DNA from: Hydractinia symbiolongicarpus
Taxonomy: Eukaryota > Cnidaria > Hydrozoa > Anthoathecata > Hydractiniidae
DNA length: 64,000 bases
Assembly: GCF_029227915.1 (NCBI RefSeq)
Contig: NC_079877.1
Coordinates: forward strand, 20,111,851-20,175,850
Direction: 5' to 3'
The notes below the pieces were generated by a model. The model worked only from the letters and a program-made list of their open reading frames with translations, had not been told where the DNA came from and searched no databases. Positions 10,333 through 36,859 of this stretch are shown in pieces. The translations under genes were made by a program, and so were the position numbers. Numbering within the stretch: position 1 is the first letter of the stretch; the number at the start of each line of letters is the position of its first letter.

Positions 10333-10580
10333 GACGTTTTTTTACCTTAAAATAATTAAAGTTGTAGGAAATATACGTAATCTAAAAATTCCGCGCTAAT
10401 CGTTCCGCACGCTATAAATACGCTCCGTTTAGAGATAATTTATTGGGCTAAATTGTTCTGAGTGGCCTGGGGTCGGTCCTGTTATTTAACACATTTACTT
10501 AAACAATAGCGAGTTCGTAGAGGGCATGATCGAAAAGTTACGCACCATAACAAGAAACTCAATATGGCGGATGGATCCCG
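10333..10580. other. Spacer, no gene recognised
   Basis: Lies between the transposase gene start and the TSD of the next element. I looked for terminal inverted repeats of the Jerky-like element here against 7360-7640 and found none that convince. Confidence 0.4.
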
Positions 10581-10610
10581 CATGAATACGATGGCACTGA
10601 AGGGTCAAAT

Positions 10611-10910
10611 TTCTATTCAATATTTCGGAACTCCTATTCAATATTTCGGAACTCCTATTCAATATTTCGGAACTCCTATTCAATATTTTGGAACTCCTAT
10701 TCAATATTTCGGAACTCCTATTCAATATTTCGGAACTCCTATTCAATATTTTGAAAGTTTTATTCAAAAAAATGTGAAACTTCTATGCATCCAAAAAAAT
10801 TGAAACTTCTATTCAAAAAATTTGAAACTTTTATTCAAAAAAAAATTGAAACTTCTATTCAAAAAATTGAAACTTCTATTCAAAAAATTTGAAACTTTTA
10901 TTCAAAAAAC
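10611..10910 (+). repeat. Subterminal tandem array, 21-bp unit
   Basis: About seven units of 21 bp (core ttcggaactcctattcaata) from 10611 to about 10757, then looser 20-25-bp units reading ttgaaacttctattcaaaaa to about 10910. The opposite end of the element (about 14640-14886) has related, more diverged units in inverted orientation, so these are probably transposase-binding sites. The frame open through them is a by-product of the 21-bp period. Confidence 0.8.
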
Positions 10911-11009
10911 ATAATAATAAATAATCAAATCTAACTAATATTTCTCTGTTAGAGAGCCAAATAGATGGACCTTGTTGGTCAAGCATCACGGGTCACCAGA
11001 TGCTAGAAA

Positions 11010-12182
11010 ATGGATGTACTCGTAGACTACCATAAACGTGGACTGTCATATAATGAGATCATCGAGATGCTTAAAATTCATCACAGTATCAACATCAGCT
11101 TATCAACGCTAAAAAGACGCTTGAGAAGTCACGGTATAAAGCGAAGAGCTATTGTCGGTGTCCGCAGTTCTGAAAGAGAAATCGAAGAAGCTGTACAAAA
11201 AGAATTAAATGGGAGTGGATCAAATATCGGGTATCGAAGATTGCGAGCATCTCTTTTCTCAAATTTCATAATTTGTCGACATGAAGACGTTAGAAAAATC
11301 GTGAAGAAATTAGACCCTGTTGGCGTAGATCTTCGGAGAAAGAGAAGACTCCATCGTAGGAAATATATCTCTAAGGGACCAAACCATGCGTGGCATATAG
11401 ATGGCCACGACAAACTGAAGCCTTTTGGGTTTTCAATTCATGGCTGCATAGACGGCTTTTCAAGGAGATTAATTTGGCTGGAGGTGGGGGCGTCAAACAA
11501 GTCACCGGAAATTATTGCAAATTTTTATCTTAACGCAGTGAGGGAAGCTAAAGGCGTTCCAAATTTAGTCAAGGCAGATGATGGAACAGAGCACTCGGTA
11601 ATCGAGCCAATTCATATTTACCTTCGCTCCTTGAACAACCATTCAGGGCTGCACTCTTTTAGCATAATTTCTTCCACTGAAAATCAAAGAATTGAGTCGT
11701 TTTGGTCCACTTTACAACGAGATCGAGTGGGATGGTGGAAACGTTTTTTCCAAGATTTAGTGGACCTAGGAATGTTCACAAATTCTGATCCGGTGTTAGT
11801 AGAATGCATACGATTTTGCTTTATGGGTTTGTTGCGAAAAGATTTAGCAAGCGTGAAGGACGACTGGAATGTACACATTATCTCTAAAAGCAGAAATAAT
11901 GGGCCAAGAGGGCGACCAGACGTAATGTACCAGCTACCACATTTATATGAAGTAGAAGATTGTCTTATCCCTGTCGATACCGAAGAAATTGACCAATTTT
12001 ATCCATGTGTCATTGGGAGCATTTTGAATGATGTATCGGCGGAGTTTAGTGAGTTTGCCGAAACAATTATGCAATCAATTGTTAGGTCAGAAAGCAGATA
12101 TAATAAAATAGCACTTTTGAATAAAACATATGTTTCCAGAACATATTTTAACAGAATAATACTTTTCACAAAAAACTACTGA
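11010..12182 (+). CDS. IS3EU-like transposase (rve-type DDE integrase)
   Basis: An intact 390-residue protein. The N-terminal part (about 1-60) is a helix-turn-helix region (YNEIIEMLKIHHSINISLSTLKRRLRSHGI). The core has the three acidic residues: AWHIDGHDKLKPFGFSIHGC (first Asp, about residue 131), LVKADDGTEHSVIEP (second Asp, about 194) and ENQRIESFWSTL (Glu, about 230). IDGFSRRLIWLEV between them is typical of this family. It would bind the TIRs and cut and paste the element. No frameshift is seen. The start at 11010 is the first Met before the HTH. It converges on the HECT gene, 137 bp between stops. Related integrase-like genes are widespread in invertebrate genomes, so domestication is possible, but the perfect TIRs argue for a live transposon. 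Confidence 0.88.
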   Translation: MDVLVDYHKRGLSYNEIIEMLKIHHSINISLSTLKRRLRSHGIKRRAIVGVRSSEREIEEAVQKELNGSGSNIGYRRLRASLFSNFIICRHEDVRKIVKKLDPVGVDLRRKRRLHRRKYISKGPNHAWHIDGHDKLKPFGFSIHGCIDGFSRRLIWLEVGASNKSPEIIANFYLNAVREAKGVPNLVKADDGTEHSVIEPIHIYLRSLNNHSGLHSFSIISSTENQRIESFWSTLQRDRVGWWKRFFQDLVDLGMFTNSDPVLVECIRFCFMGLLRKDLASVKDDWNVHIISKSRNNGPRGRPDVMYQLPHLYEVEDCLIPVDTEEIDQFYPCVIGSILNDVSAEFSEFAETIMQSIVRSESRYNKIALLNKTYVSRTYFNRIILFTKNY

Positions 12183-12319
12183 AAATGATAAACATAATAA
12201 AAAAAGATGCGTATTGCCAATATAAAATGTAAAAGCAATAAAAAAAACCCTGAAAAATATACATAAAATGTCAACACAATTAGTCAAAGCGTCTTTTTAC
12301 GACCACTACCACAATCAGA

Positions 12320-14600
12320 TTACATAATATCCATTTCCCATTCAGAGAGATTTAAAATGTTTCTAAATTCTTCACGTAATTCACAGTAGTTATTATATGT
12401 GGAAGGCAATTCCAAGCAAGGTGAACAAGTGTGAGCAATAGGTCTACGTTCAAAATTATTTTCTGGTTGAATAAAGCTGAGTTCAATGTATTCAACTGTT
12501 AAAAGGTCGGAACCAGTTAAAAATTTTAAAAGCTTTTTCGTTTGTGCCGGATCTAGTCCTCGGATATATCTTTTGAGGTAATTGAAAGCGTCAGTTTCTG
12601 CACTATTTGTTGGTAACACATTCGTAAACAAATTGATAATTTTTTTGGACGATGGTTCCATGTCCTTGTAAAACTGTGAGATCGCTTGTGACGATGAAAA
12701 TATTGACATTTCTTTCATGTTTTTAAAAGCATTTTGCCAACTAGATGCCATTAAGTGTGGTTTTTGCACAAGTTCTTGTCGTGCTATTTCAATTATAACA
12801 ATTTTAACATTCTCTTGTTTGACCAATGTTCGACAACTGAACTGCTCCATAAATTCCAAAAATTCATCAGATTTAATAGCAATGTTATCACCATCAATTA
12901 CAATGTTCATCAAGTTTCGTTCATCTTCAGATAGGTAGTTTGAAAAAGATTCCAAAAGGACTTCATTAGAGACTTCCCCAAATAAACAAAACTCAAGAAA
13001 GGCTTTGCTAATGAAGATTGGGAAATATTGGGTATCAACGTATCCCTTTAAGATTATTTTCCCAATTGCTTCCCATTCTGCCTTGTAAAGGTCATGTCTG
13101 ACGTATGGCACTCTTTCCTTTTCTCCAATGAATAAGGAATCACTCACATCCCTCCAAAAGGAAGAGTAGACATCTCTGGATACACCACTCCCACAGCCTT
13201 TTTCCTTATTCCCACGAGGATCTATCCATCCAAACGTAACTAAGTCTTGTTGATGGATCTACAAAAAACAAAATAACAAACACATTGTGTACATGCTTTT
13301 ATTATAATGCATACCCAATTATATACCAAAGACAGTCATTCACGATAATTAATTGCCATGTAAAATTTTTAAATCAATTTTTCTCTCTCGCAAAATAAAG
13401 AAAAAATGTTGGATACAAAATCACAACATTTCTTCCACTTAAATTACTTTACTGCTTAACAAACTGCATACTAATTTACTGCAGATTATGAGCACTGCAA
13501 GTTTGATCAATGAGAAATAGATTTTACTTAATTACTTACTTACTTTCACTGACAACCCATACTAAATATATAAAATTAACATTGTCATTATAAATGTGGT
13601 TACTTACCTCTTTGTTCTTGAAAATTTCAATTAGATCAGATCGTAGCGTCAAACGATGAATATCAAAATGATAGCACTTTTTTTCAAATGTTGTGTTGAT
13701 TGCTGCATCATTGAGGGGATTCTCTTCAGAAGTGTTATTGTTTTCCAAATTTCTCACTCTAATTTCTCTCAACATCTGAAGCGATGGAGCAGTGTACTGC
13801 TCTTCTTCTAACACAGGACTTAAAGGTGTGAAAAATTCAGAATAAAAAAGATCTTGAGATTTGGTTGTGTCTGCTGCGTTAGAAGCATTGAACTCTGAAT
13901 TCTGTAAACAAATCAGACATTCTGTTCCAGTGTATGTACACGCACACGTTGAACATATTCGTCTTTTAGATGCCTCCCCTGATGCCACACTTTCATTTGG
14001 CTTAACATTAAATGATGTTTCATGACATATATGTGGCTCATTTTCGTGTGGATTTGTGAATTCATCATAATCCATGAATTTAGTTGACAATATAAAAACA
14101 CATTTACTGAGGAATAAACCTTTTTTATCCAAATATGTCCAAATATCAAGGTCCTCTAACAATTCTTCACCATCAGGGCCACACAAAGCTAGATAACATT
14201 CTGATTCGTGCTCTGAAAAGCTATTTCTTCCATCCTTATCAAAGTATAGCTTGACTGCATCAGCCTTTAATGCTTCAACTGTTTTAGGTTGTCCTTCCTC
14301 AACCTTCAAGAACCTGTAGCCTCCACCATCTCCTGACTTAACAATCTGGAACTGTTCCTTAAATGCATCATATCTTGACCATTTTAGTTGAAACTTTTTT
14401 GTTTTTACCTTCTTTTTTGATGAGTTACTAACACTACCACTGCTCCTGATTTTCGACAGGAGATTGTTCAATCGACCTTCAGTTTTCTTTTTTGGTTGTA
14501 ATGTCACCGCTGCGGTTTTTGATGTTGACGGTTCCATAGCTTTTTTTAACTCCTCTTGCACAATACTCTTTATAACGTTGTCCATCATCAATGCAACCAA
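12320..14600 (-). CDS. HECT-like E3 ubiquitin ligase carried by a transposon (two exons)
   Basis: Exon 1 is 14600-13608 (331 codons, phase 0, donor GTAAGTA). Exon 2 is 13258-12320 (312 residues, acceptor TTTTTTGTAG), giving about 643 residues. The N-terminal half has a basic Ser/Lys tract, a segment KWSRYDAFKEQFQIVKSG, and a cysteine cluster RRICSTCACTYTGTECLIC that may bind zinc. Exon 2 matches a HECT domain: TFGWIDPRGNKEKGCGSGVSRDVYSSFW, VPYVRHDLYKAEWEAIGKII, and the C-terminal lobe AHTCSPCLELPSTYNNYCEL. The Cys of TC (near residue 609) sits where the catalytic thioester Cys of HECT ligases lies. The role is probably ubiquitin transfer, whether to host factors, the transposase or nothing. 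The gene lies inside the TIRs, facing the transposase. Confidence 0.8.
13259..13607 (-). other. Intron of the HECT-like gene
   Basis: A 349-bp intron with a strong donor (GAG|GTAAGTA) and acceptor (TTGTAG|ATC). Joining the flanks keeps phase 0 and restores continuous HECT homology. A spliceosomal intron in a cargo gene of a DNA transposon fits a gene taken from a host genome. Confidence 0.75.
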
Positions 14601-14639
14601 TATGAACTAATTCTGCCTCATGTGATCTGTCTGGACTTT

Positions 14640-14886
14640 TGCACGGTGCCGAAGTTTTTCGAAAGTAGTTGAATAGAAGTTCCGCATCTTGAATAGAAGT
14701 TTTCCGAAAGTGCTTGAATAGAAAGTTCCGATTCTTAAATAGAAGTTCCGAAATTGTTTGAATAGGAGTTTTCGGCTCATGAATAAAATCCCGATAAGGT
14801 TGGTCAGAAGTTCTAAAAATGTGAATAGATGTTTTGAAAAGATGAATAAAAGTTCCGAAAAGTTGAATAGAAGTTCCAAAATGTCG
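14640..14886 (-). repeat. Right subterminal repeats of the HECT-carrying transposon
   Basis: Read on the minus strand this region repeats phrases such as cttctattcaa and cggaacttttattc at irregular 20-30-bp spacing up to the right TIR. These mirror the left array. Minus-strand open frames here are artefacts of the repeat. Confidence 0.7.
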
Positions 14887-14922
14887 ATAGAAATTTGACC
14901 CTTCAGTGCCATCGTACATGAA

Positions 14923-16730
14923 CTTTGTGCACTGATTTTCTGCTGTTTTAACCGTTATTTTCTTTGAAATCCCTGGGAAAAAGGTGACAACACTTATATA
15001 TTTTCAAAACGTGTATAATACAACATGTGAAAAGCGTCCCAGCGAGGGAAAAACGCGATTTTATAAGTGCGGAAAAGTTACAAGTGCGGAATGATTACCT
15101 CATCCGACTACTTGCATGCTCAAAAATTAGTTTTTAGAGGGTTATGCAGCAAGAAAGTTTTCTCCTGCTGGTTCAAAAAGATATACAGAAGATGCTTGTG
15201 TTGTTTTGAAAGTTATGTTTATGCAGCAAGTTATTCTCCTCCCACTTAAAATAATGTAAAAAAAGCTTCAAGTGTTTTTTAAATGTTTTTACCGCAGTCT
15301 TAAAAGAAAATCTAGCTAAATAAATCTAAGTGCAAATTTTTTTTAAGGAATATAGTTGTTTAGAGACTAATATTTCAAGTCTTTCGCAGCATTAAAGTTA
15401 ATTAAAAATCATAACGAAGAAGGGTCTATTCTGCCTTGTTTTTATATCACATAAGTTAAATCGAAAGATTATACATTTTAACTAGCGTAATATAAATCGT
15501 TGCATTTATAGACAAAAGATATAGCATTTCTTTTGTGTGCAGAACAATAACAGTCGCATAAGCGTTTACAAAATCGGAGATACTTTAACAAATAAATTCA
15601 TGTGTGAATAAAAGATGTTCGTGTGCTAAAACAATAAGAGACATGAAGGGTAATTGACTTTTTAAACATTTTTTGTGTTAATCCCTTAGCAGCTGCGATA
15701 ATTATAAAATAATAAGCCACACGAAAATTGTTAAAGTTCTGACGCTACCGAAAGCTTGTGTAAAGGTGATAACTATCGTGCACATGTAACATTACATTCA
15801 GGCGGTAATGTAAACTATATATAGTCTGTGAAACTTTTTTGCACTTAAATATTAATTTTCTTATGAGACTGCGCAAAAACATTAAAAGAACACTTATAAC
15901 TTTATTATTAAAATAAATTTTGTGTTTTATTGTTTTAAATGGGAAAATAATAACTGGCTGTATAAATTTCGAAACAGCCTATGTAATATATACCTGCTGT
16001 ATATCTTTCAAAACAACGCAGGTATTTCTGAATAATTTTCGAAACAGCACAAGAATAATTCTTGATGTAGAGCTTTCAAAACAACACAAATACTTGCTGC
16101 ATAACTTTTGAAAACAAGTTTTTTAACATGCAAGCGTTTTTATCTTTTAACCTTAAGTACTAGTTACATTTTTTTAGTGAGACAAATTATTATTATTTTT
16201 CCTTCGCAACTAAAAAATATAAACTGCGTGCGTTATGCAAAAATGCATAGAAAAATATTCTTGTCGTAACCCCTCCTCTGTTCTTGTTTTTTTATTTTTT
16301 TGTTGTTCCGACCATTTATACATTCTCGATAAAATTATTTTTATTTCGCTGACCGGCAGACCGTAAACTACTATCTACTTCGCCCGTAGAACAAGTAATT
16401 AAGTTGGAGTCACCTTATTTCTAAAATCCAATTTCTAATAAAAATACAAGATACAAAAGAATTTTTGAATGTAAAAAAACAAAAACAAAGACACAAGATT
16501 AGCTATACACATCTTTTGTTTAATATTTTTAATGTTATTCACAATCCATCGTGACAATCACAATTAATAGTGACGATCGCGATAGCATCGTTATTTTTTA
16601 TACATTGCAACTACCGTGAAGCTCTTCGTTAACATTTTTTCTATCGTGATGGTCACGATAGGATCGCGGATCGTTCGTGTTGTGCATGATACCCGCTCAC
16701 GATGGTAGGTGTCCTGATTCCAGTACTGTA
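14923..16730. other. Non-coding, AT-rich, with dispersed repeats
   Basis: No gene recognised. About 15500-15815 is a dispersed repeat also present inverted near 37118-37416. Around 15968-16110 a loose duplication of about 69 bp repeats cgaaacagc and ctttcaaaacaac. The segment 16535-16730, rich in cgatcgtgac-like words and ending aggtgtcctgattcca, resembles 30290-30410. None has coding character. Confidence 0.5.
15500..15815 (+). repeat. Dispersed repeat copy 1
   Basis: Shared blocks with the inverted copy at 37118-37416 include gacaaaagat...catttcttttgtgtgcaga, gaaagcttgtgtaaa and gtgcacatgtaacattacat. A shorter piece (acattcaggcggtactgt) recurs at about 46410-46440. The family is not identified. 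Confidence 0.6.
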
Positions 16731-16967
16731 TCTCCATCTTCCATATCTATAATATTATTTCTCACACAATATCATCTGTACAGAAATGAAGCCTGCATTC
16801 CCAGCAAAGCAGTCTCAGAAAACATTCTGTTACCACCTTACTCTTTGCTGTTAGATGATAATTTAACAAAAATAACATCTAATGAAAATCTTAAGATTTT
16901 TGTGCTACATAAATTTAAAATATCTCACAGTAAGAAATGTGGTGGTATATTGCTATTGCTAGCAGGG
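16731..16967 (+). pseudogene. LINE N-terminal leader with start of 2A-like motif
   Basis: The frame gives PPYSLLLDDNLTKITSNENLKIF, then HKFKISHSKKCGGILLLLAG, which ends at the Copia insertion. A hydrophobic run followed by AG and, across the insertion, GDINPNPGP is the layout of 2A-like leaders in APE-type LINEs. The upstream Met (16677) lies in a different repeat, so the true start is unknown. Confidence 0.65.
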
Positions 16968-17107
16968 TGTTAACTTGAAATATAACACTTACAGTTAGTT
17001 TGATCCTTTCCAACTAGATTGATACTTTGGTGATACTTCTGTTGATATAAACTCAGCGTCCCATGCAGCTGTATTAGATAACTATTAATGAGAAGATACA
17101 ACTATCA
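16968..17107 (-). repeat. Copia 3' LTR
   Basis: Short LTR, TG...CA termini, similar to the one at 21870-22014 apart from small indels (the latter has an extra TTAG and one extra G). Confidence 0.9.
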
Positions 17108-17108
17108 A

Positions 17109-17124
17109 TCTCCCCTCTTTCTTT
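17109..17124 (-). other. Copia polypurine tract
   Basis: On the minus strand a purine run AAAGAAAGAGGGGAGA abuts the 3' LTR, in the expected place for plus-strand priming. Confidence 0.6.
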
Positions 17125-17400
17125 ATTTGTGTCAACTCCATTGGCTGGTCATCTTCTTCATCATCTGCAATTATTCACTTGCAGCATAAACTTGATATAA
17201 ACCATGGTCGAAGGAGAAATGTAACATTCTGGATCGAACCAATGAAATACTTTCTAGAACTGGACGTTTATCTATGTACAGTGGGGTCAGCAACATAATT
17301 ATCTCCTAATCTTTGTGAACAAAATAAAAATAAAAAACAGAAATCCAAAATGTTTGTCTATATACAGTAGGGTCAAAAGCACATCCCCTTCAAACTGGAA

Positions 17401-18380
17401 TGGTGTGTGGAAGCTGGCCATTCTCAATAGCTTGTTTCAGTAGCTTCCAAGATGCTCCACGTTTGGTGAGTGCATCACTGATTTGCATTGAACCTTCTAT
17501 CCATGTGACTTTAATGTCACCTTCTTCAACCATTTCTCTCAAGGCACAGATTTCTAGTCTCAGACGTTTGTCTGATGGTTGCTTTGTTGAACCAAGTGCT
17601 TCGTATAATGAGCGACTGTTGGTTACAGCATAGACTTAAAGCTGTTGATGTTCTAATAACAGATTACTGACCATGTTAGAAACGAAGAATGCCAATTCGC
17701 ACCCGTCACACATTGCTAATGTTTCAGCAGCCAATGCTGACCTTACAACACGTTTGAGTCGAGTAGAATTCCACGCTAGTGTGCAACATTGCTGGAACTT
17801 ATCACATAGAAGAACTATCTGGCCACCTTGACTTCCAGCATTTGGTAAACTATTGAAGCTGCCATCTGCATAGACTTGGATGTGAATTGAATTAAAATCA
17901 AGGCAGGGAAATGTCATGAATGATGGATTATTTTGGACTTTAGTGATGACTTTGTTAGCATCAATGACATCTGTGAATGTAGCTTCTTTGATTCTCCCAG
18001 ACAAGTAGGAGACTTCAAAACTGATTTCAGGTTTGGACATGCATGATAGCCAGTTCAATTGACCAATGATGGATCTCAGTTCTCCTCTAACATTTTCATT
18101 AACAGGTGTATGTTTGTCCATTTTTGGTGGTAGCTCGATCTTTTTAATTGAGGATGCAAAATTGTTTTGAGAGAGCGTTATAGAAAAGTCTTTATGTTGT
18201 TTCAGTTCAATTCCCAAATATTTAAATGCTGTGTGATGTTCAGTACTAAACTTCAATACTTGTCCCAATGGCTGGATAACCTGTATACGAAAGTGCCACT
18301 CCACATAATGTCATCTACATGAGAAACAAGGATTCCATGCAACGCATCACCAACACGCAATAGAACAATCCATTGGTAAA
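17401..18380 (-). pseudogene. Copia reverse transcriptase C-terminus and RNase H
   Basis: An HVDD active-site motif is seen in frame fragments at about 18300-18330 (VSHVDDIMWSGTF). The next segment, 18304-17636, carries FKYLGIELKQHKD, the RT connection and RNase H with IQVYADGSFNSL (first Asp) and SALAAETLAMCDG (Glu). The frame continues past a stop at 17636 with SRSLYEALGSTKQPSDKRLRLEI and DALTKRGASWKLL, the normal Copia C-terminus, to about 17401. At least one stop and one frameshift. Confidence 0.8.
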
Positions 18381-18406
18381 TGGACTAGGGGTAACACCTA
18401 ATTTGA

Positions 18407-18991
18407 TCAATTCTTGTCGGAGTCGCAGGTAAAACGGCGAGGAGCATCTGCAAGACCATAAACACACTTCATGAGTTTCCATAATTTATCAGTATTGGCT
18501 TCTTTAGGTGGTTTTATGAATACTGTACGTTCTATGGCATACCCTTGAAGAAAGGCTGTTTTTATGTCTAGAGAATGGAGTGACCATCTCATTGACGCTG
18601 TGATGGAAAGACAAAGTCGAACACTCTCTCTTGAGCAGGTGGGACTATCTGTCCGATAGTCTTGGGATTCTTGAAAGCCTTTGGCAACTAGTCTGGCTTT
18701 TGTTGATGATTTGTTGTCAATAACTTTAGGAGTGATTACCCAACGTACATTCATAAAATTTTGACCTTCATCTATGACTTCTTCATAGACTTTCTGAGAC
18801 TTCCACGACTGAAGCTCCCGTTGTTTGGCAAGTTCTATGTCAGTGTCAACTTGGGCAATGAGGATTTCTGATTGTAATACCTCTTGATCCTTATTGCTTT
18901 TGTTAGTATGATGCCATGTTGTTACGTCACTACTGAAATCAACTGATTGAAATTCACCTTCGGGTGACTTAACATTCCATGATACTTCCAT
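18407..18991 (-). pseudogene. Copia reverse transcriptase N-terminal part
   Basis: The sequence has MNVRWVITPKVIDNKSSTKARLVAKGFQ, DSPTCSRESVRLCLSI and WSLHSLDIKTAFLQGYAIERTVFIKPP, all RT fingers/palm blocks (Asp of DIKTAFLQG is one catalytic residue), and KCVYGLADAPR. It overlaps the integrase segment by a frame change at about 18922-18991. The palm VDD lies just beyond the break. Confidence 0.85.
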
Positions 18992-20553
18992 TTTCCTGTC
19001 GATTTTCCTGATCTGCTATGTAGGGTTCCCTTTTTGCATCTATCGTCATTTTTGAGTTGATACTCCATGGTGTCGTTTTTACGCAAAGAATCTAGATTAG
19101 GACATTTCTGGTTGTCAGGTGATGCTTGTTGGACATCAAGAGATTGTTGTTGTTCAAAATCTGTGTCTAATGTTCTTGTGTTTGTTGCTGCTGAAGACAT
19201 GTAGCGATGCGGTCTATGCGTGTTTCTGGATCTTGGAGCAGTTGCATGTGGTGTAGGAGGGGGTGTTGGTGCAATCGTTGGTGGAGTAATGGAAACATGA
19301 TGAGGTTGTTCATCAGAATCACTGTCGTCTTCGAGTGCTTGACTCTGTTTTTCTGGAGTACTTGGTGAACCAGATGTGACAGCATCTTTTTCTGATGATA
19401 TATGATTTGAATCATCTTGATCACAGATTGTAGAATCATTGTTTCGCACAGGGGAATTTCGAGCTGGTCGTATGCGGCAAGGGTGTACTCTGATGTAATA
19501 GCCACCATGTTTGAGCAATGTTTGCTGTCCATTTTTCCCTAAAACTGTAGCTGGTCCTCTCCATTTTGTTTCGTTGTTCCTCTTGTAGTAAACAATATCT
19601 CCAGTAAGAATAACAACATCACTGTAGGTACGAGTATTGCTTGAAAGGGCACAGCGAAGTTGTTCTGATCTTTCATGGTGCATAAAGGCCTCTCTAGCGG
19701 CATGTAGAGCATTTAAATTCTGGCAAAGTATATCACTCGTTGGTATATCTGCAGTCAATGCTGGCAATTCATTATTCATAGCACTAGGGAGGCGTGGATT
19801 GCCTCCAATTGCCAGTTGATATGGACTGAAACCATGGCAATTGGTAAGGGAATTCTTGGCATTGACACACCAAGATAAAGAGATATCGAAACCACAGTCG
19901 GTGTCTTCCAGAACTTTGTCCAGCATGGCGGATATAATTTGGTTGTGACGCTCAACAAGGCCATTGGACCAAGGAGATTCAGCTCCAGTTGTTCTCACTT
20001 TGATGTTCATTTGTTCACACATTTCCAGAAAGGATTCATTGATAAATTCACCACCATTATCAAATAGGAACGAAAGACGTGTAGCATGGTCGATCATATG
20101 TAGCAGTATCTTTTGACGATAGAATTTCAGATCTATGGCAACAGTGTCTAGAAATTTGTTGGCTGATGGTAAACCAACAACAGGTCTGAGTGCAGCTCTG
20201 CCATACTGTTGACATGTTTGGCAATTTTTCGCAACAGCATGCAGCTCTTGCTCCAGCTCTTTATCATGTGCCCAGGGGTCGCCAGCAGATTTTACCAACT
20301 TGAGGAGTTTGTGAACTGGTGCATGCACAAACTGACGGTGTATCTTCAGTGCTTGGTTATGCTTTGATGTTGCTTCCTGAACAGATAAGACAATGTTTGG
20401 TTTGCATTTTGTATCAACCATGGACAAGAGTTGTGTTTGCCTGGTGAGTGGGAATGTATAGTGACCACTCTTCGTCACATTGAGGTTCACAACAGTGTTA
20501 AATACTGAGGCAGTATCACCTTTGAAGTCAATGGACATGTTTGCTTTTTTCAT
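18922..20553 (-). pseudogene. Copia integrase with internal deletion
   Basis: An HHCC-like N-terminal domain is visible (HRQFVHAPVHKLLKL...CQTCQQYGR). The core has AIDLKFYRQ (first Asp), FLFDNGGEFINESF (second Asp) and SNGLVERHNQI (Glu). Between DHATRLS and FLFDNGGEF the usual 25-35 residues are absent although the frame stays open, so the integrase has an in-frame deletion and is probably inactive. A Pro/Ser/Thr-rich tail follows. Confidence 0.85.
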
Positions 20554-20757
20554 AGCTTCTTGAGAAAGGAGTAGTGGAATGTCTTTTTCAACAATGTCAG
20601 TGGAAATACCTATTTCACAGAGACCAAGAAAGGCAGGTATGGTGGCTGTCTGGGTAGATGTAACCTCATTTCCATCTCCAAAGAGATAAACGTTGGAAAC
20701 GGGTGATGTTTTAACCTTTTTAATGTCAGTTTCGGAAAGGCTTTCGATGAAAGTGTT

Positions 20758-21471
20758 TTACCAACTACGGCAACAAACTGTTTTCGTAGCACCACTGTCA
20801 AGAACAGCAGCATTCCAAGATTCTGCCACCAGTCCAGGAAGATGTTTTGGGTGGTCATAATCACTTTGAAATAATATAATCTTATGATAAGTGTCATGTT
20901 CCTCAACTTTATATAGGCTCGGATCATCTTCTTGCTCCTGGAAGTAAACATATCTGTGATGAAGAGGTTGATTTCGTGGACGCATGGAACGCTGATTATT
21001 GTTTTGGTGTTTTTTATCGGGGCAATCTGCAGCCCAATGATAAATTGATTCGCAAATTCTGCAACGACTGACTTGCCCAGTGCGTGATGGTGGATTTTTG
21101 GAACTTGCCACAGAAGAGTATCTTTTCATCGGTTGTTGGTTGGTTTGTGTTCGTCTGTGAGGACAGCGTTGATAATCTTCATTACTATGTCTGCCAGCAA
21201 AGTATGTTGAATAACATTCGTCATTGTCAATGTTTTCATAAGTGACTTCATTAATTTCATGGACTTGTAATGAATTAGAAGCTTGTGATAAGCTTTCTTT
21301 ATCTGGAAAAATTTTCTTAAGTTGGGCTTTCATGTTGGTCAATGTAAGCTCTGTAACGGTACCTTTGGCCAACTTTTCATCTTGCTTTGAGAGATTTGCT
21401 AATTTTAAGAGCTTGTAAGCAAGGAGATCTTCGGATATAGTGGTACCATGGCTCTGCAGTTTGAAATACAA
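20758..21471 (-). pseudogene. Copia Gag C-terminus (zinc knuckle) and protease
   Basis: Contains the CCHC knuckle CRICESIYHWAADC and, after a linker, the aspartic protease active site AAVLDSGATKTVC. The Gag N-terminal half is in the preceding segment (21810-21496), one frame away. Protease homology continues into 20750-20600 in another frame. Confidence 0.85.
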
Positions 21472-21495
21472 CTTTTCAAACTGGTGAATGTGTTC

Positions 21496-21810
21496 TTAAA
21501 TGGAAGTTTCAGATGTCCGCTTGTAAGTGTCAAACTTATCCAGAGCTTCGAACTTTTCTAATGTTGTGTCTTTCAAATAAAGTTTATCTAACTTTTCTAA
21601 AACCTTTTCCAATCCATCATCGCTATTAATGATTTCTAATTCAAGTTCAAGTACGGCTTCTTCAGCCGACCCATCTAAAGTCAATAATATGGCTGCTCCA
21701 TGCTTCTTTTTCTCGAGTGTGGTGAATGAGGACCAGATATTCACTTTCTTTTTCCAATCAGTGTATAATGAACTTGTAGACAGCAAGGGAGGATTTTTGT
21801 TTGACGACAT
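21496..21810 (-). pseudogene. Copia Gag N-terminal part
   Basis: Starts MSSNKNPPLLSTSSLYTDWKKKVNIW and continues GAAILLTLDGSAEEAVLEL, a layout like other animal Copia Gags (Trp-rich start, then AILLSL-x-G-x-A). A stop at 21496 and a frameshift separate it from the zinc-knuckle part. Confidence 0.75.
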
Positions 21811-21859
21811 TTTGCATCCAAAAACCGTGTAACATCCAGAGTCGGGGATCTTGTTCTAG

Positions 21860-21868
21860 CTGCTACCA
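21860..21868 (-). other. Copia primer-binding site (initiator tRNA-Met)
   Basis: One base inside the 5' LTR the minus strand reads TGGTAGCAG, complementary to the 3' end (CTGCTACCA) of animal initiator tRNA-Met. Confidence 0.65.
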
Positions 21869-21869
21869 C

Positions 21870-22014
21870 TGTTAAATTGAAATATAACACTTACAGTTAG
21901 TTTGATCCTGTCCAACTAGGTTGATACTTTGGGTGATACTTCTGTTGATATAAACTCAGCGTCCCATGCAGCTGTATTAGTTAGATAACTATTTATGAGA
22001 AGATACAACTATCA
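21870..22014 (-). repeat. Copia 5' LTR
   Basis: Mate of the LTR at 16968-17107. Its outer end is followed by the CAGGG duplication and the resumed LINE frame. Confidence 0.9.
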
Positions 22015-23644
22015 CAGGGGACATAAATCCTAACCCGGGACCTCAATCACAACGTAATGCCAACACATGCCCTGCCTGTTTCAGAACGGTAGCAAAAAAC
22101 CACAGAGCAGTTGAATGTGACCAATGTAAAAAATGGTTACATATTAAGTGTGACAATATATCTGTAAAATCGTACAATTCCATGTTGACTGCATCTGATG
22201 ACGACACTTTAAACTTCTTTTGAGGATGGCTATTTTGATAACTCATTTCCAAACGATGACGTAGAACCAGATATATCTTCCTTTGAACCAAACTTTGATT
22301 TTGACCTTGGTTCAACTAAAAAAAAAAGTTTCAAAATGGGTCATTTGAATGTGAATGGGTTAAGAAGCAAGCTTGATTACATAAAAGTCTTCCTTCATGA
22401 ACATAAACTTGACATTCTAGCTCTAAATGAGACTAAAATTGACAGCCATGTCACCAATGCAGATATTACCATCCCTGGTTACAATATTTTTCATTGTGAC
22501 TGGAACAAACATGGTGGTGGAGTCTTAATTTATGCTATTGATACATTACCCACTAAAAAGCTTAGCCATTTGAGTAAATATAATATTGAGAGTATATGGA
22601 TTGAGGTCAAACTAAAAAAGTCCTCCCCAATATTTTTATCTTCTATATATAGACCACCTGCAAAGGGAAAAGATCTTGTCATGGTGGAACGACTGTCTCG
22701 ATATATCAAGGACTGCTTAAAAAACCTTCCAAATATCCAGAAGTTTTCATCTTAGGTGATTTAAACTGTAATTTTAATAAACCTAATAACTTGACCAGAA
22801 TTCTAAAAGATTGTCTCGTCTCCTGTAACTTGAAGCAGTTTATTGATAAGGATACTCGCACAACTATTTCTTCATCTACTTTAATTGATCTCTTTATTTC
22901 CAACAGTGAGCATATGTCACTCCTCTGTCATTGATATGGGTCTGAGTGACCACTCTTTTATATATGCCATTCGTGAATGGAAAAGGGTTAAAATTTCTGC
23001 AAAAGTTATTAAATCAAGATCTTTTAAGAACTTTAACGAAGAAAACTTTTTGTATGACTTGCATTCTATAAACTGGGATGAAATTTTAAATAAAGACAAT
23101 CTTGACACAGCTTGTAATATCTTTAATAAATTTGTTACTAATATAATTGATCAACATGCTCCTATTAAATCTAGCCGTGTCAAAGGAAATTGCCCTCAAT
23201 GGCTAAATGATGACCTTATTCATGCTATAAAAGAGAGGGATTTCTTAAAGAAAAAAGCCTCAAAAACTAAATTAATTGCTGACTGGGACAAATTCAAATT
23301 CAAAAGAAATCAAGTCAATAAAATGAAAGAAAGGTTGAAAGGTCATCATTATGGCAATAAAATAAATGAGGATGCATCGGATCCTAAACGCCTATGGAAA
23401 ACTCTTAAGGAACTTGTTCCTGATAAAGAGAACAAGAATGTTCCATCTTCTATCTCTAAGAACGGCATGGAAATAAATGACCCTAAAGGTATTTCGAACT
23501 CTTTCAACTCCTTTGCTACCATCGGTAGTACCCTTGCTCAAAAATTTACTTCTGACAAGTCTGATGTCAACATAGAATGTAATGATAAAAACTTTATATT
23601 TAAGGAAGTGGATGAAAATACCGTTACCAAAATAATAACTGGTC
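22015..23644 (+). pseudogene. LINE: 2A-like motif, PHD-like finger, EN, start of RT
   Basis: From 22017 the frame reads GDINPNPGP, then CPACFRTVAKNHRAVECDQC and WLHIKC, a PHD-like zinc motif. After a frameshift near 22220, FKMGHLNVNGLRSKLDYI opens the EEP endonuclease (22336), with LALNETKID (Glu), IYRPP, and, across a shift at about 22750, GDLNCNFN. A linker with WLNDDLIHAIKERDFL and LWKTLKELVPDK precedes RT. The frame is cut at 23644 by the second IS3EU-like insertion just before KNNKATGTDKI. Confidence 0.85.
22017..22043 (+). other. 2A-like ribosome-skipping motif
   Basis: Encodes G-D-I-N-P-N-P-G-P after a hydrophobic leader (LLLLA, on the other side of the Copia insertion). The 2A consensus is D-[VI]-E-x-N-P-G-P. 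Here Glu is replaced by Asn. APE-type LINEs of other animals are known to encode such motifs. Confidence 0.6.
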
Positions 23645-23965
23645 TATGGTGGCCCATTGATATCAACGTAAAAAAAGCAATAAAATGAATAAATGTTGAA
23701 AAAAATCGTTCTTAAAAGTTCTTTTTTTCTTTAATTATTATTTTAATTTTATTATTTTTTTAATTATTATTTATTTAAAGAAAAAAAATATATAAAGTAA
23801 AAACAAAATTGTTGTATTGTTTCTCTTTCTTTTCTTTTTCTTTAAAATGAAAACCGTCGACGTGGCCCATGAGTATCAAAATCAAGATCACCGGGAAGTT
23901 CCCCTTCACACCGCTGGTCTGCTTTATACGCGTAACTTATGCAGGGCTTGTTTAAATGAGACAAC

Positions 23966-25179
23966 ATGGCTGATTGGCGCAAAGATATTTCTTTGCATGA
24001 GGAACTGAAATGTTACGTGGAACAGAATATGAAACGGTCAGAAATAGTTGACTTTGTTCGAAAGAAGTATCCACAATACTGCTGGAGTGTTCCAACCTTA
24101 GCCAGGCGATTGAAATTTTTTCAAATAAAGTATGTCGACAATGCAACGCCTTTATCAACTGTTAAGGAAGCCGTTCAGTGTGAGTTGCAAGGTCCTGGCA
24201 AATTACTAGGATATCGCGCCATGAATCATAAACTCAGAACGGAACACCATATTTGTGTACCTAGGAATCTTGTAGCAGATGTGTTATTCGATTTAGATCC
24301 TGATGGAATGGGGTCTAGAAATGTGAAAAAAAAAAAAAAACCTCTCAAAAGACCGTTTATTTCTGATGGGCCAGGATGAACTTTTTCTCTTGATGGCCAT
24401 GACAAAATGATGGGATATCAGAATTCCATATTTCCTCTCGCCGTGTATGGTTGTCTAGACACGTTTTCCAGAAAAATAATTTTTCTTAAAGTATGGACGT
24501 CGAACTCTGACCCAAAATTGATTGGAAAATTCTACACTGAGTATCTTCTAGAAACAAAGAAATTGCCTGTATTTACGCATGGATCGTGGAAGCGAGACTC
24601 GAGTGATGGCAACGATACATGCATACTTAGTTGACAAATTCTGTGATCTGGAGGACAGCACTAAGTGTATTGAGTATGGGAAATCAACCTCTAACAAAAT
24701 AGAAAGATGGTGGAAGGATTTGCATGAACGGTTCGAAAAATACTTAAAGGAGCAGTGTATGGTCTACTATTATCCCATTTATATGACCCGAGTTGCACAT
24801 TCGATAGTAAAATGCTATCCTATATTTTCATTCCTGTAGTTCAAAGAGAATGCGATACATTTTGTCGTATGTGGAACTCTCATCGCATAAGGCATCAATC
24901 AGGATTAGAATTACCAACTGGAATACCTAATCACATGTTTTCATTCCCAGAAAAATTAACGCTGAGGACAAACATATCAACATAACTGAGGAGTCTTTGG
25001 AGGAAGTAAGTGAATTGGCACATTTGGACAGTCTACCAAATCACTATCTCACTGAAGAAGAAGTTGAAACTTTTACTGATGTACTTCCTGATCCGCTAGG
25101 TTTAAAGTGTAATGAATTAGTCACAGCTTTTAAGTTTTTGAAATCACAGCTTTCAATATCGCAAGGTGGAACTGCTTAA
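23966..25179 (+). pseudogene. IS3EU-like transposase (rve-type integrase), broken
   Basis: MADWRKDISLHEELKCYVEQNM opens an HTH region (SVPTLARRLKFFQIKY). After a stop at 24377-24379 (a Trp position, TGA) the core reads TFSLDGHDKMMGYQNSIFPLAVYGCLDTFSRKIIFLKV (first Asp). A frameshift near 24590 leads to MDRGSETRVMATIHAYL (second Asp), then TSNKIERWWKDLHERFE (Glu). Another shift near 24770 leads to RECDTFCRMWNSHRIRHQSGLELPTGIPNHMF and a tail to 25179. The order and spacing match the intact transposase at 11010-12182, but sequence similarity is low, so these are distinct lineages. Confidence 0.8.
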
Positions 25180-25473
25180 TTTTTAGTAACTGGACACATA
25201 TATCAAATTATATCATTCTTTGTAACATAATATATAACAAAATAACATACAAAAAGCTAATCCACTTCAGACTGGACTATTTGAACAAATTTGAAAATAT
25301 AATAGGAACATAACGATGCAGTGCCTTTTTTAAAAAATATATTCAACGAAAAGCACTTTAAAGAACAAAATGTCTCCCTACAACAAAAACATGCCACAAT
25401 ATATTGTATTGTATTTTTATAACAAAATAAGAACAAAAATGTCCACCTAATAGCATATGTAGTTTTAAAATGT

Positions 25474-26792
25474 TCAGTCTTTGTCCTCCTCTGATTCCAT
25501 TTCTATTTCTGTTAACGACAGAAGTTTGCAATACAGGTTGCATTTGTGCTGGCTAAAGAAATTATCAATCGCCATTTCATTCAAATTACCAGAGCAAAAA
25601 TATCTTTCATTATCCATTTCTAGGTCATTAGACGTAGCAATCTCAGGATCATATAGTGTATAATCACTCCCTTGTAAATCAACTAGAAGTAGCCTCTTGA
25701 TATGAGAAGTGACCACACATTCAGCCTTAGCATACAAATCCTTTTCAAGGGGTACTTTATTTTGTACTGGCACCCCATCATTATTTATATACTTTTTAAA
25801 GTTCCCAGGCACAAAGGGTTCAACTGTTACAGGTTCATTCGCAAGATTTGCAAAATAAACATTATTGTAAATAAAAATTATTCAAAACTCGCCAAAGATT
25901 TTGTCCGCTTTTTCAAACGGTTTGTTATTGCTTGAGCAGCCATGTGCATCTGGATCTGTTTTCGGGTGTGTTCCTCTAAACTCATACCATATGAGTGTGC
26001 TACATTTTTCCAGGTTGAAGATTTAAATTTTTTAATAACATACTGTTTATTCACTTAATTTTCCATTGTATAAGCCTTAAATGCATAACGAAATGCTCCT
26101 TCTGCAAAATGTTCCTTTTCGACATGGAAAAGTTTACTATCGCTCTTAAACCATTTTTTCTCGTTTATTTCAAATGATTCCAACACTATATCCGTTGTGT
26201 ATTCCTCTTTTGGTTTAACAAGTTTCCCAGCTTTAATTACATCAGCTATGGATACTGACTTTGGAAACACACTCTTATTAATGCTTGAACATACAATTCT
26301 CTTCCTTCGTTTGATGGAACTTGTTGAGTCTGAATACGCATTCCTCGATTTATTATAAATAGAAGACAAGTTCCTTTTGTGTAGGTCAGAACATTTTTGG
26401 CTGTTGATATAATCTGTCAAAACTTTTGCTGTTGCTAAAAATCGAACAAGCAAAACTTTTTTGCCTATTATCTGATCATCCTCAAATCATGATGGTCCTC
26501 TCTCACTATACAAGACATCGCACGATCCTTCAGGTTCGCCATAATACTTCTCGCATGCTCTTTTGACATTGTCCAGAGATAAACTTGAATATTCTGAAAA
26601 GTCTACAAAGTCCCTAGCTCTTTCTGGTTCGTATTTCTTCAACTTACCAGTTGCCACTGGATTCATTTTTTGAACCATGATGGAATGTACCTTCTTCCCC
26701 TTCTTATCCTTGTCTTCACTTCTATTCCTTTTTTCACTAATTTTTTTCTGGAAGTTCTTAAATTTTTCATTCCTCGCATTTGCTTCCGCCAT
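25474..26792 (-). pseudogene. Alpha-kinase gene carried by a transposon, broken
   Basis: Reads leftwards from MAEANARNEKFKNFQKK at 26792 through a basic, Lys-rich N-terminus and KYEPERARDFVDFSEYSSLSLDNVKRAC. One in-frame TGA interrupts it (about 26484-26486). Then come the alpha-kinase N-lobe block FHVEKEHFAEGAFRYAFKA, a stop at 26055, and QYVIKKF (catalytic Lys region). After a frameshift near 25885 the C-lobe follows: VEPFVPGNFKKYINNDG, LLLVDLQGSDYTLYDPEIATS and CSGNLNEMAIDNFFSQHKCNLYC (zinc-module His, Cys, Cys). These are the diagnostic atypical alpha-kinase (MHCK/eEF2K-type) blocks in the right order. It would phosphorylate proteins if intact. It lies wholly inside the TIRs, converging on the transposase. 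Confidence 0.85.
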
Positions 26793-26885
26793 GTTTTTCA
26801 CCTTATTGAATAAATAAACACAACGAAAGAGCGTGCTTAGTTGCACGGTGAATAAAACCATGACCAATTGCAGGGCTTGTGACAC

Positions 26886-27090
26886 TTATAGCACTGGGCC
26901 ACACCATGTATTTTTGTTTTTTTTTAAAAAGAATCTTTTCTTATATAAGATTTTTTTTCTTAATAAATTGTTTATCATTATAAAACATTTTTTTTATTCT
27001 AATTATTTGAATTTTTAATATTACTTTTTATTGATTTAATTTTTTATCTTTTTTTCTTTTTTTTCTTTTTAGTTTGACATATCCATCATA
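26886..27090. other. AT-rich subterminal region of the second IS3EU-like element
   Basis: Long T-runs between the alpha-kinase start and the right TIR. The mirror-image left side (23676-23860) is similarly rich in T and A. Ordered subterminal repeats like those of the other element are not seen. Confidence 0.4.
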
Positions 27091-27127
27091 TTTTTTACGT
27101 TGATACCGATGGGCCACCATACTGGTC

Positions 27128-28577
27128 TAAAAAACAATAAGGCCACAGGTACAGATAAGATAGGAGTGAGAGTGTTGAAAGCTGGCCTCCAAGTTTTTTC
27201 ACCTGTTCTCACGAAATTGTTTAACAAATCATTAACTACTGGTTATGTTTCATCATGTTGGAAAAATAAAAGAGTATCTCCTCTTTTCAAATTTGGAGAT
27301 CCTAGTGATGTAAACAACTACAGACCGATTTCTATCCTTCCAGTTGTCATGAAAGTGTTTGAAAAAATTGTCCATGAGCAAATGGTTGAGTTTCTATTGG
27401 AGAATAATTTATTAAATTGCAAACAATCTGGTTTTTTGAAAGCTCCATTCCACTTCTACTGCTGCGATTGATGTGTCAGGTTATATTTTAAATGACATTT
27501 CAAAGGCAAATATGTTGGTGCAGTTTTGATAGATTATAAAAAGGCTTTTGATACAGTGGACCACAAAATTCTTTTAAAAAATTTATACTGTTATGGTTTT
27601 CGAGATGGTTCTTTTTATTGGTTGGAGTATTACCTTTCTAATAGACACCAAGTCACCTTGGTGAAAAACACTATGTTAGATGTGATACCAGAGGAGTCCT
27701 ATGGAGTCCCTCAAGGATCAGTCCTTGGACCGTTATTGTTTCTTGTTTATATTAATGATTTGAAATCTGAAATTCACAACTCTTACTTCCATCTGTATGC
27801 AGATGACACAATAATTATTCAAAGCTGTAATTCTCCTATTGAACTTAAATCTGCACTTGAAATTGAGTTAAATAATGTCAAGCAATGGATCCACATTAAT
27901 AAAGTCACCATAAATACTGATAAAATTAAGTGATCTTTTTTGGAAATAAAGCAAAACTTAAAGCATGCACAGACATCATTATATCATACGATGGCATTGA
28001 ATTAACTTCAAGAAAGAAGGTGAAGTACCTGGGGTTATCTTTGATAGTAACCTGAGTTGGAAAAGTCACATCAAAAGCGTTGTTAGTAAATCATATTATA
28101 AATTCAATAAAATAAGATACATCAGTTCATACTTGAACGATGAAACAAAACAATTACTCATGAATGCTCTTGTCATGCCATATTTATATTAATATTATTG
28201 TTCACCAACATGGTGTAATGCTAATAACTCATCTTTAAAAAAGGTGAATAAATTATTTTCTAACATAAACAATTTTTTGGGTAGAGATGCTTCAGACCTG
28301 AACTCTCTATTTAATTTCAACTCAAGTATTCAATCTTTAAAGCTGTCCATGAGATTGCACCTGCATATTTGAGCAATAAGCTAACATTAATTGTCACAGC
28401 ACCAGATCATCTACAAGTAATATGTTAGTTTCTCATCCAAGTGGTGCAAGGTGTTTTAATAGAACATTTTTATATTCATCTCCAAAGCTTTGGAATAGTT
28501 TGCCAGATGATATCAGAAAATTAAATAGTCTCCTGCAATTCAAGGTTGCAGTTGGCAAATATTATAACTTTAAATAA
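27128..28577 (+). pseudogene. LINE reverse transcriptase (YADD) and C-terminal region
   Basis: Resumes the LINE after the transposon: KNNKATGTDKIGVRVLKAGL, NNYRPISILPVVMKVFEKIVHEQ, then after a frameshift at about 27470, VLIDYKKAFDTVDHKILL (catalytic Asp), YGVPQGSVLGPLLFLVYINDL and [13 protein letters not shown] stop at 27931 and further shifts follow, with LNDETKQLLMNALVMPYL and SPKLWNSLPDDIRKLNSLLQFKV near the end. All RT blocks are recognisable. Confidence 0.88.
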
Positions 28578-35233: not shown

Positions 35234-36859
35234 AAGGGTGCCGGCTTGCCGGAATCGCTGCAAAATCCATGGGGGCTGTCAGATAACTTCCAGTGTTTAA
35301 AACAATTTTCGCCCAGAGAAACCCAAATTAACCCAAAGGAACATTTCTTTTAAACATTTATTATAGTGAGGGAGGGTAATTTTTACGCCATATCACGAAA
35401 CTTTGTTTTTCTGCCCAGCGCAATCGACTTAAATTTCCTTTGTTGTGATTTTGTAAAGGCTATTGTACCATTTTTAAAATTAAAAATAATTTTTAGTTCC
35501 TTACTGCCTCATTCCGCATTTTTTCGCAAAGTATTGAGCGTAACAATTAGCCACAAAATTTATTAATTATTACGCCTTTGAGGGAAATTATTACGCTGTA
35601 AAATTACGCTATATACCAACAACTGCAGCGTACGTGAATAATACAACTAAGCTCTGAAAAGGAAACAATAACTTTCTTATAAACAATTTACATCTATAAC
35701 AACGGGTACTGAAGGGTAGGTTAGGGCATCATTAGGTTGTATATCGCAGAAGTCGCCGATAACATGCTTCGGAAATGCTTGTCACAGGCACAGTTTAACA
35801 TGAAGCAAAAATTTACAAGATTCTCAATTGTTAGAGTCTTCACAGAACCTCTCTCCTCACAAAACCGAGGGCAGAGCTGACTTATTGCCTGATGTGTCGT
35901 GTGGGAGAAAGAACTTTTTTAATACGATAAACAATTTTTTCAATTATTATTACGAATCAAACGGCACCACAGTATTTCTATAGCCTGAATGATTTTTGTT
36001 AGTGATTGGCTGTAGTTTAAAAGAACACAAGTATTTGAAGATGTTATCTACTTATTGTTTACATCTAAAAAGTAAAAAACGTGTTTTCCATAAAGTACAC
36101 TGAAATAAGTTTAACCATACAACTTGGCCTAATTAAATTGTCTAGGTCACTTGGTAACTTGAATTAAACCTTGACATCGGAGCGTAAAAAATTTCCCGCC
36201 ATGTTATTGTATCTATTACGTTGCTATTTGTAAAATATACATAAGTACCCAATCAAAACAAATGACCGACTCTAAAAGCTATAATGTTAAAGAACAAAAT
36301 GTGTCAACAATAAGCGAGAAGGGTATTTCCATCGGGATAAAAGCGAAAGTTACTCAGGCACGATAGGAAATTGTTATCAGCGGAAAAAATGTAATGATAA
36401 TTTGGAGCATTATTTACAGTTATCAGTTGAATACTTGAGTTTGTATTATGTATTTAATTAACAATTATAGGGGTATAAATGTGCTTAGGGCTAGCTGCAG
36501 CTGAATTCTACTTCCATTTTTTGTAAATTAAGGGCGTAATAGTTAACCTGCCAACCCTCCGGCGTAATAATTACCCTCCCTCACTATACCAAGTATAATT
36601 CATTCTTTTAATGTTGAGCAGTGGTAGTGGAAGAGGTCTGAAAAGAGGTCTCACAAATAATAAACTGAGATTACAACGACAAAATAGCATATTCCTTCTT
36701 TCGACAAAATTTAAATAAGAACAATGAGCTTGCGCGCGTTGCATTTCGGGTGGTTTTGGCCATGCCCAGGCTGTTCCAGGTGGTTACAGACGAAAGCTTT
36801 AAAAAAAAAGCCTGTGTGGGCCCTCATATATACGGTGCTTTAGGCGAGACGGCACCCTT
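35234..36859. mobile_element. Non-autonomous DNA element with AAGGGTGCCG termini
   Basis: Inverted ends AAGGGTGCCGGCTTGCC (35234-) and, on the other strand, AAGGGTGCCGTCTCGCC (ending 36859) match at 15 of 17 positions. A clear target duplication is not visible. It holds a second element (35364-36586), so its own body is only about 400 bp. Confidence 0.55.
35364..36586. mobile_element. Nested non-autonomous element, TIR about 26 bp, TA duplication
   Basis: Ends read TAGTGAGGGAGGGTAATT (left) and the same on the other strand at the right, continuing tTACGCC with one mismatch. TA dinucleotides flank it (35362-35363 and 36587-36588), fitting a Tc1/mariner-like target. The 1.2-kb interior has no transposase. 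Confidence 0.65.

Follow-up and report, generated by a model that had tools for sequence, protein, structure and literature searches.

IS3EU/GingerRoot-type transposons of Hydractinia symbiolongicarpus carry a HECT ligase or alpha-kinase gene that looks like an old and stable partner of the transposase

A 64,000-nucleotide stretch of the genome of the hydrozoan Hydractinia symbiolongicarpus (assembly GCF_029227915.1, contig NC_079877.1, positions 20,111,851 to 20,175,850; hereafter the window) contains two DNA transposons, element 1 and element 2, each with a transposase gene on its left side and a convergent second gene on its right. The second gene belongs to the HECT ubiquitin ligases in element 1 and to the alpha-kinases in element 2. 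We consider it likely that both belong to the IS3EU/GingerRoot superfamily as DNA transposons with two genes each, that they stand here for two old lineages distinguished by the HECT ligase and the alpha-kinase, and that the enzyme probably helps the element. Because the tree of transposases shows a single partner change and the HECT and transposase distances rise together, the second gene looks like an old and stable partner of its own transposon lineage, with one switch and not repeated acquisition. This finding is carried by the two-gene anatomy, by a tree on which the loci read fall into one HECT and one kinase side, by the co-divergence of HECT gene and transposase, and by the retention of the active-site Cys or Lys.

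An earlier note on this DNA had described two elements with TAY...RTA ends, a 6-bp target-site duplication (TSD), a left-side transposase and a right-side convergent second gene, and the terminal inverted repeats (TIRs), TSDs and genes were all confirmed. It had also called the second genes unrelated, which agrees with their catalytic domains falling into different Pfam families, and had described the transposases as distant yet of one superfamily, as the direct match between them suggests. The HECT and alpha-kinase genes that it named are both present; its account had to be corrected in that the HECT gene has two exons with the frame intact and that element 2 is broken in both of its genes.

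Partner genes, active sites and the transposase tree

We read 53 transposase loci in the genome, both window elements included. The sample was not random: searches with the element 1 and element 2 transposases gave 118 and 143 matches, of which the 30 best and the 10 best, respectively, were taken, together with 13 hand-picked loci, and for the first 30 loci a flank of 1.5 kb was read, in which the HECT gene is seen in part only. A convergent downstream HECT gene was found at 35 loci, a convergent downstream alpha-kinase gene at nine, and neither at nine. Of the 45 loci at which a HECT or kinase gene was matched, all but L034 have the convergent arrangement. HECT and kinase genes were looked for at every one of the 53 loci, and other frames were viewed in about half of them, where no third recurring partner was seen. 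The kinase labels hold in nine of nine cases with a profile that leaves element 2 out. Pfam HECT lies above its cut-off (23.9) in L033 (31.5 bits), L035 and L038 (37.2 bits), and a C-terminal TC or AC motif with an LP, MP or FP stretch is legible in 13 of 14 HECT family representatives (L039 is without this end; in L019 a stop stands just past the motif). A reverse survey started from 42 alpha-kinase Pfam matches, merged into 40 genomic loci, and used as its transposase set the 45 of 143 matches taken as kinase-lineage, the 98 rows left out being mainly HECT-lineage matches and overlapping pieces. Sixteen of the 40 kinase loci lie within 6 kb of a kinase-lineage transposase match, and all 16 are convergent.

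The nine loci with neither partner are L014, L028, L029, L032, L034, L036, L041, L047 and L052, and six of them (L014, L028, L029, L032, L036 and L047) look decayed rather than one-gene by origin. By eye, L029, L032 and L036 keep the N-terminal part of a HECT-type gene (L032 was compared with L035), and Pfam gives no family for L029 and L036. The right TIR follows soon after the transposase in L028, the downstream frame of L014 has a weak reverse-transcriptase match, L047 is almost a copy of L053, which has a kinase gene, and L052 is broken. Two candidates for a different cargo were rejected. The N-terminal parts in L032 and L036 point to deletions, since the HECT gene is complete in L035, which is nearly a copy of L032, and a PHD-finger frame downstream of L028 (Pfam PHD, 25.6 bits) lies outside the right TIR.

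A maximum likelihood tree of the 53 transposases separates 11 rows (nine kinase, two without a partner) from 42 rows (35 HECT, seven without a partner) by a branch supported at 100/100, and the partner changes once among the 44 labelled rows. The kinase rows also fall on one side of a branch (98/99) in a 30-row tree that includes bacterial IS3 and IS481 rows. When the 35 HECT loci were clustered at 12% transposase difference into 14 families (91 pairs), HECT and transposase distances were correlated (Spearman 0.64, Pearson 0.89), with none of 5000 permutations as high. For the kinase lineage, in which nine loci form five families, the Spearman coefficient was 0.69, and 167 of 5000 permutations reached it. 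Such correlated distances are a prediction of joint inheritance and not of frequent swapping.

The active sites are retained in both lineages. Among 29 HECT homologues the catalytic Cys is present in all 27 readable rows, and a profile of the C-lobe matches the structures of HERC6, HUWE1 and TOM1 (E 8e-4 to 2e-3). Judged by its domain and catalytic Cys, the second gene of element 1, which encodes 639 amino acids, is predicted to be a HECT-type E3 ubiquitin ligase. Alpha-kinases are recognized by an ATP-site Lys and a DxQG motif; in the homologues collected here the Lys is kept in 59 of 59, the D in 57 and the Q in 56. The kinase profile matches TRP-related, MHCK-A and eEF2K chains (E 7e-31 to 3e-20), and the kinase copy of element 2, as read in L040, scores E 1e-52 against a profile of 91 homologues built without it. 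A search for HECT relatives, in which the 8000 best candidates were scored and 40 proteins listed, gave named-species relatives from Hydractinia, Exaiptasia, Stylophora, Mytilus, Holothuria and four fishes; these include a H. symbiolongicarpus HECT-lineage protein (P0121) with 97% identity over 69% of the query. Features similar to those of HECT exon 1 recur in proteins P0122-P0127.

The transposase of element 2 finds that of element 1 directly (E 8.1e-28, 33% identity) and scores E 1.3e-42 against a profile built on 17 element-1-type transposases. A piece of it matches rva_4 below the cut-off (E 8.9e-4); in the kinase-lineage locus L047 the same domain is found at 31.7 bits (cut-off 26). The likely DDE residues of the element 1 transposase are D131, D190 and E229; in an alignment of 17 transposase rows the two aspartates are invariant and the glutamate nearly so. 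Against NCBIfam this transposase matches IS3 (E 3.2e-10) and IS481 (E 4.4e-7), both below the curated cut-offs.

Some further observations touch on the distribution of these genes. At L045 (about 16.9 Mb) and L046 (about 32.57 Mb) a kinase-type element apparently lies inside a HECT-type element: a HECT first-exon frame adjoins it, and a HECT-type transposase match lies 2-3 kb off. Over 3.5 kb the two copies share 98.9% identity. Nesting of this kind might allow one lineage to acquire the gene of the other. Three contigs filed under the genome of a Cycloclasticus symbiont of a sponge (L055-L057) carry IS3EU-like transposases and, in L056, frames that by eye are retroelement-like too; the contigs may have come from the sponge and been binned with the bacterium. 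The viral contigs scanned contained no relatives. In octocorals, relatives of the transposon alpha-kinase go under the names TRPM6-like (two) and vwkA-like (one) (P0213, P0220 and P0221), and such host-gene names in databases may inflate family counts.

Alternative explanations and a possible role for the second enzyme

Several results weigh against an old and stable partnership. The HECT labels are of uneven strength: at E 0.1, profiles built solely from element 1 and database proteins find L031, L035, L038, L039 and L050 but miss L033 and L037, and what they match in L031, L038 and L050 is mainly the N-terminal and Cys-rich part. Pfam HECT falls below its cut-off in L037 (23.0 bits), which is the weakest HECT label, and in L050 (19.6 bits), and it is absent from two pieces of L031. 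At L034 a HECT fragment (Pfam 42.5 bits), not counted under the HECT label, lies upstream of the transposase on the same strand. In L032 and L036 the HECT gene is truncated although the transposase frame is open and both TIRs and TSDs are good, and the HECT product may thus not need to be supplied in cis. The tree program gave a long-branch warning at the HECT-kinase split, and the 30-row tree did not fix the root, as the bacterial outgroup was split up and L060 is seemingly in the wrong frame. The three sponge-symbiont contigs hold related transposases and no HECT or kinase match, over contigs that are short. Lastly, for 14 pairs of recent copies the ratio of non-synonymous to synonymous rates (dN/dS) ranged from 0.33 to 1.09 for the transposase and from 0.53 to 2.14 for HECT, exceeding 1 in one transposase pair and four HECT pairs; three transposase pairs and one HECT pair had no synonymous difference, and an internal deletion in L010 has probably skewed the HECT values for its comparisons with L011 and L012. 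These values fit dead copies and are no proof of selection.

The earlier note had proposed that the superfamily repeatedly acquires unrelated second genes at the same place, with a 'swappable' cargo exchanged between families, and had suggested that a transposase tree be built and the second genes listed. On the 53 loci, which are not all of the copies, this gave one split and no cargo swaps across branches, and HECT was found to co-diversify with its transposase. Neither of the outcomes that the note had named as refuting occurred, as 44 of 53 loci have a convergent second gene and the transposases match directly. Two different catalytic domains at the same place and in the same orientation do favour repeated acquisition, and so do fungal IS3EU families that have a TET/JBP gene between transposase and alpha-kinase (PMC12730594); with one partner change among 44 labelled elements, co-divergence of HECT and transposase and no third recurring partner in the frames viewed, we nevertheless hold it to be unlikely. 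It is scarcely credible that the second genes were copied from the host or lie nearby by chance, without being part of the transposon. HECT and alpha-kinase are host domain families too, and at 24 of the 40 alpha-kinase loci none of the listed transposases lies within 6 kb, but several independent insertions enclose the second gene between their TIRs and TSDs, and the second genes are convergent wherever a partner was matched except at L034 and diverge together with the transposase.

The HECT and kinase proteins are alike in layout: in both, a lysine-rich leader comes first, then a conserved N-terminal region and then the enzyme domain. This likeness could be taken to mean that a common N-terminal module was kept and the exchange was confined to the catalytic half. 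When the two N-terminal regions are compared profile to profile, the probability is 0.1-1.1%, Pfam has no match in either region, and whole-protein profiles match solved structures in the enzyme domains only, and a domain swap therefore seems quite unlikely to us; a common module, plausible by eye, is not supported by hhalign. Convergence between two elements of different superfamilies is a reading with next to no probability. It could draw on the distance between the transposases (about 30-35% identity) and on the apparent introns within the catalytic core of the kinase-lineage transposase genes (a match gap in L047 and L053), yet the direct protein match, rva_4 in L047, the similar TAY-type tips and the identical TSD length all speak for common origin.

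Under the explanation that we prefer, an old partnership in each lineage, the left gene encodes a DDE transposase, and the ends, the TSDs and the transposase type suggest movement by cut-and-paste. The right gene, being convergent, is probably driven from the right end, and its predicted product is a protein-modifying enzyme from which the element may benefit. Most likely this enzyme would act in trans, either on the transposase, through its activity or turnover, or on host silencing factors. HECT ligase and alpha-kinase could then serve one need by different means; either one enzyme took the place of the other, or each was acquired a single time, long ago. If this is true, a lineage that keeps its own ubiquitin ligase through deep divergence, with relatives that have a kinase, amounts to a natural experiment on the accessory enzymes of eukaryotic DNA transposons. 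It can further be speculated, with slightly more doubt than belief on our part, that IS3EU in animals generally has two components, of which the second is as a rule a protein-modifying enzyme, either an ancient co-diversifying HECT ligase or, in the other great lineage, an alpha-kinase; that ubiquitylation and phosphorylation are interchangeable controls of the transposase or of host silencing; and that part of the HECT and alpha-kinase genes annotated in cnidarians, molluscs and fish is transposon-borne.

Termini, features and surrounding DNA

The features of both elements are collected in the table. Positions 9500-28500 were scanned for TA..TA ends whose 8-bp tips match and whose 6-bp flanks are identical; this returned only two pairs, those of elements 1 and 2, with 28 of 28 and 26 of 28 TIR bases matching, and in 20 shuffles of the region in two-base blocks no pair had 25 or more matching TIR bases. 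The right subterminal array of element 1 is inverted relative to the left one. A close relative of this element, L002 (4614 bp), has 98% transposase identity and its own TSD, CATTTA. The TIRs of element 2 are 94% complementary, and its relatives include L042 (4065 bp, TSD CATAAG) and L062 (3471 bp, TSD with one mismatch).

Table. Features of the two transposons, in window coordinates
Feature	Position	Strand	Size	Remarks
Element 1, putative IS3EU-type DNA transposon	10587..14916		4330 bp	two convergent genes; TIRs and TSD
Element 1 left TSD	10581..10586			CATGAA
Element 1 right TSD	14917..14922			CATGAA
Element 1 left TIR	10587..10616	+	30 bp	TACGATGGCACTGAAGGGTCAAATTTCTAT; inverted-repeat pair, 100% complementary
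Element 1 right TIR	14887..14916	-	30 bp	perfect complement of left TIR
Element 1 left subterminal array	10607..10909	+		repeats of 21-22 bp
Element 1 right subterminal array	14651..14892	-		repeats of about 20-21 bp, some longer periods
Element 1 transposase	11010..12182	+	390 amino acids	frame intact; rva_4 integrase core, E 1.9e-30
HECT gene, exon 1	13608..14588	-		lysine-rich leader; N-terminal region without known family; Cys-rich motif CSTCACTYTGTECLIC; GT donor
HECT gene, intron	13259..13607	-		GT..AG, inferred from reading frame and homologues
HECT gene, exon 2	12320..13258	-		HECT domain; active-site motif TC..LELP; Pfam HECT, E 2.3e-10, 41 bits (cut-off 23.9)
Element 2, putative IS3EU-type DNA transposon	23645..27121		3477 bp	both genes decayed
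Element 2 left TSD	23639..23644			CTGGTC
Element 2 right TSD	27122..27127			CTGGTC
Element 2 left TIR	23645..23675	+	31 bp	begins TATGGTGGCCCATTGATATCAACG
Element 2 right TIR	27091..27121	-	31 bp	begins TATGGTGGCCCATCGGTATCAACG
Element 2 transposase remnant	23966..25179	+		in-frame stop and frameshifts; motifs SLDGHDK, NKIERWW
Element 2 alpha-kinase gene remnant	25474..26792	-		two stops, one frameshift; Pfam Alpha_kinase, E 1.8e-17, 64.5 bits
Reverse-transcriptase-type frame, left part, split by element 2	22885..23638	+		resumes at 27128-27471

Across the relatives, both TIRs and a 6-bp TSD were found on 13 elements by a scanner that scored only duplications of 6 bp with at most one mismatch. 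The TSD is exact in 11 of them (elements 1 and 2, L002, L005, L029, L031, L032, L033, L035, L036 and L042) and has one mismatch in L037 and L062. The scan gave no pair in L038, L039, L050, L051 and L053, only weak A/T-rich TIR pairs, which were not accepted, in L034 and L052, and none in L041, L043, L045, L046, L047 and L049, which are loci of 3.7-3.8 kb that may not span both ends. HECT-lineage elements mostly end in TACGATGG, with TACGGTGG, TACGGAGC or TATGGAAG in divergent members; the kinase-lineage ends seen are TATGGTGG. These are the TA..TA (TAY..RTA) termini of IS3EU/GingerRoot. One kinase-lineage TIR, used as a search pattern, found 14 ends in the genome. In addition, each of the 10 HECT-lineage elements examined, and none of three kinase-lineage elements, had 9-mers that recur at least three times in the 450 bp next to both ends (in L033 the right-hand repeated 9-mer is a simple repeat), and the subterminal repeat arrays of the HECT-type elements are possible transposase binding arrays.

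The borders of element 2 look exact, because removal of the element together with one TSD copy joins the empty site into a continuous frame of 367 amino acids. The right part of this interrupted frame matches RVT_1 below the cut-off (E 0.0012) and by eye resembles a non-LTR (long terminal repeat) retroelement; for the left part Pfam gives no clear family. The two genes of element 2 lie just about 290 bp apart, and the gap is crossed by no frame longer than 81 amino acids (a check of frames, in which no TET profile was used). Between the two transposons, near-identical direct repeats stand about 4.9 kb apart (16968-17107 and 21870-22014), and minus-strand frames between them have weak matches to rve, a zinc knuckle and RVT_2, none of which reaches the cut-off; this LTR-flanked element (16968-22014) looks like an LTR retroelement. 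Two other inverted-repeat pairs in the window, at 35362-36588 (28 bp, 96%) and 55460-58132 (30 bp, 97%), mark transposon-like elements, neither of which matches the IS3EU, HECT or kinase profiles.

Comparison with known systems

In RAG1-RAG2 and ProtoRAG, a DDE transposase likewise faces a convergent accessory gene within one TIR pair; there the transposase is unrelated, the TSD length differs and the second gene encodes a PHD/Kelch protein. The IS3 and IS481 insertion sequences have a catalytic core related to the element 1 transposase and differ in being prokaryotic elements, and we know of no HECT or kinase partner in them. The IS3EU/GingerRoot superfamily, in Repbase since 2013, is characterized by TA..TA termini, 6-bp TSDs and an IS3/IS481-like DDE transposase (PMC10045372). 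Termini, TSD length and transposase type of this kind are seen in both window elements, and since their TAY..RTA ends, 6-bp TSDs and IS3/IS481-like core match the published features, both appear to belong to this one superfamily, as judged from ends, TSD and DDE core. A second gene goes unmentioned in the available part of that article (PMC10045372), whereas each window element has one.

Direct literature searches found no paper describing IS3EU together with HECT, although Repbase may hold such entries; among the entries listed in wider searches, no title or abstract opening described such an element, and the word HECT is absent from the available text of PMC12730594. For the alpha-kinase, its convergent arrangement with an IS3EU transposase is already published for fungi (PMC12730594). 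These fungal TET+ IS3EU elements have TAYGG..CCRTA ends and a 6-bp TSD, with transposase and alpha-kinase in opposite orientations and a TET/JBP dioxygenase gene between them (Kojima 2025, PMC12730594). Element 2 follows the same plan and differs in having no room for such a gene between transposase and kinase. That report is the better evidence for a gain of cargo in the IS3EU superfamily (PMC12730594).

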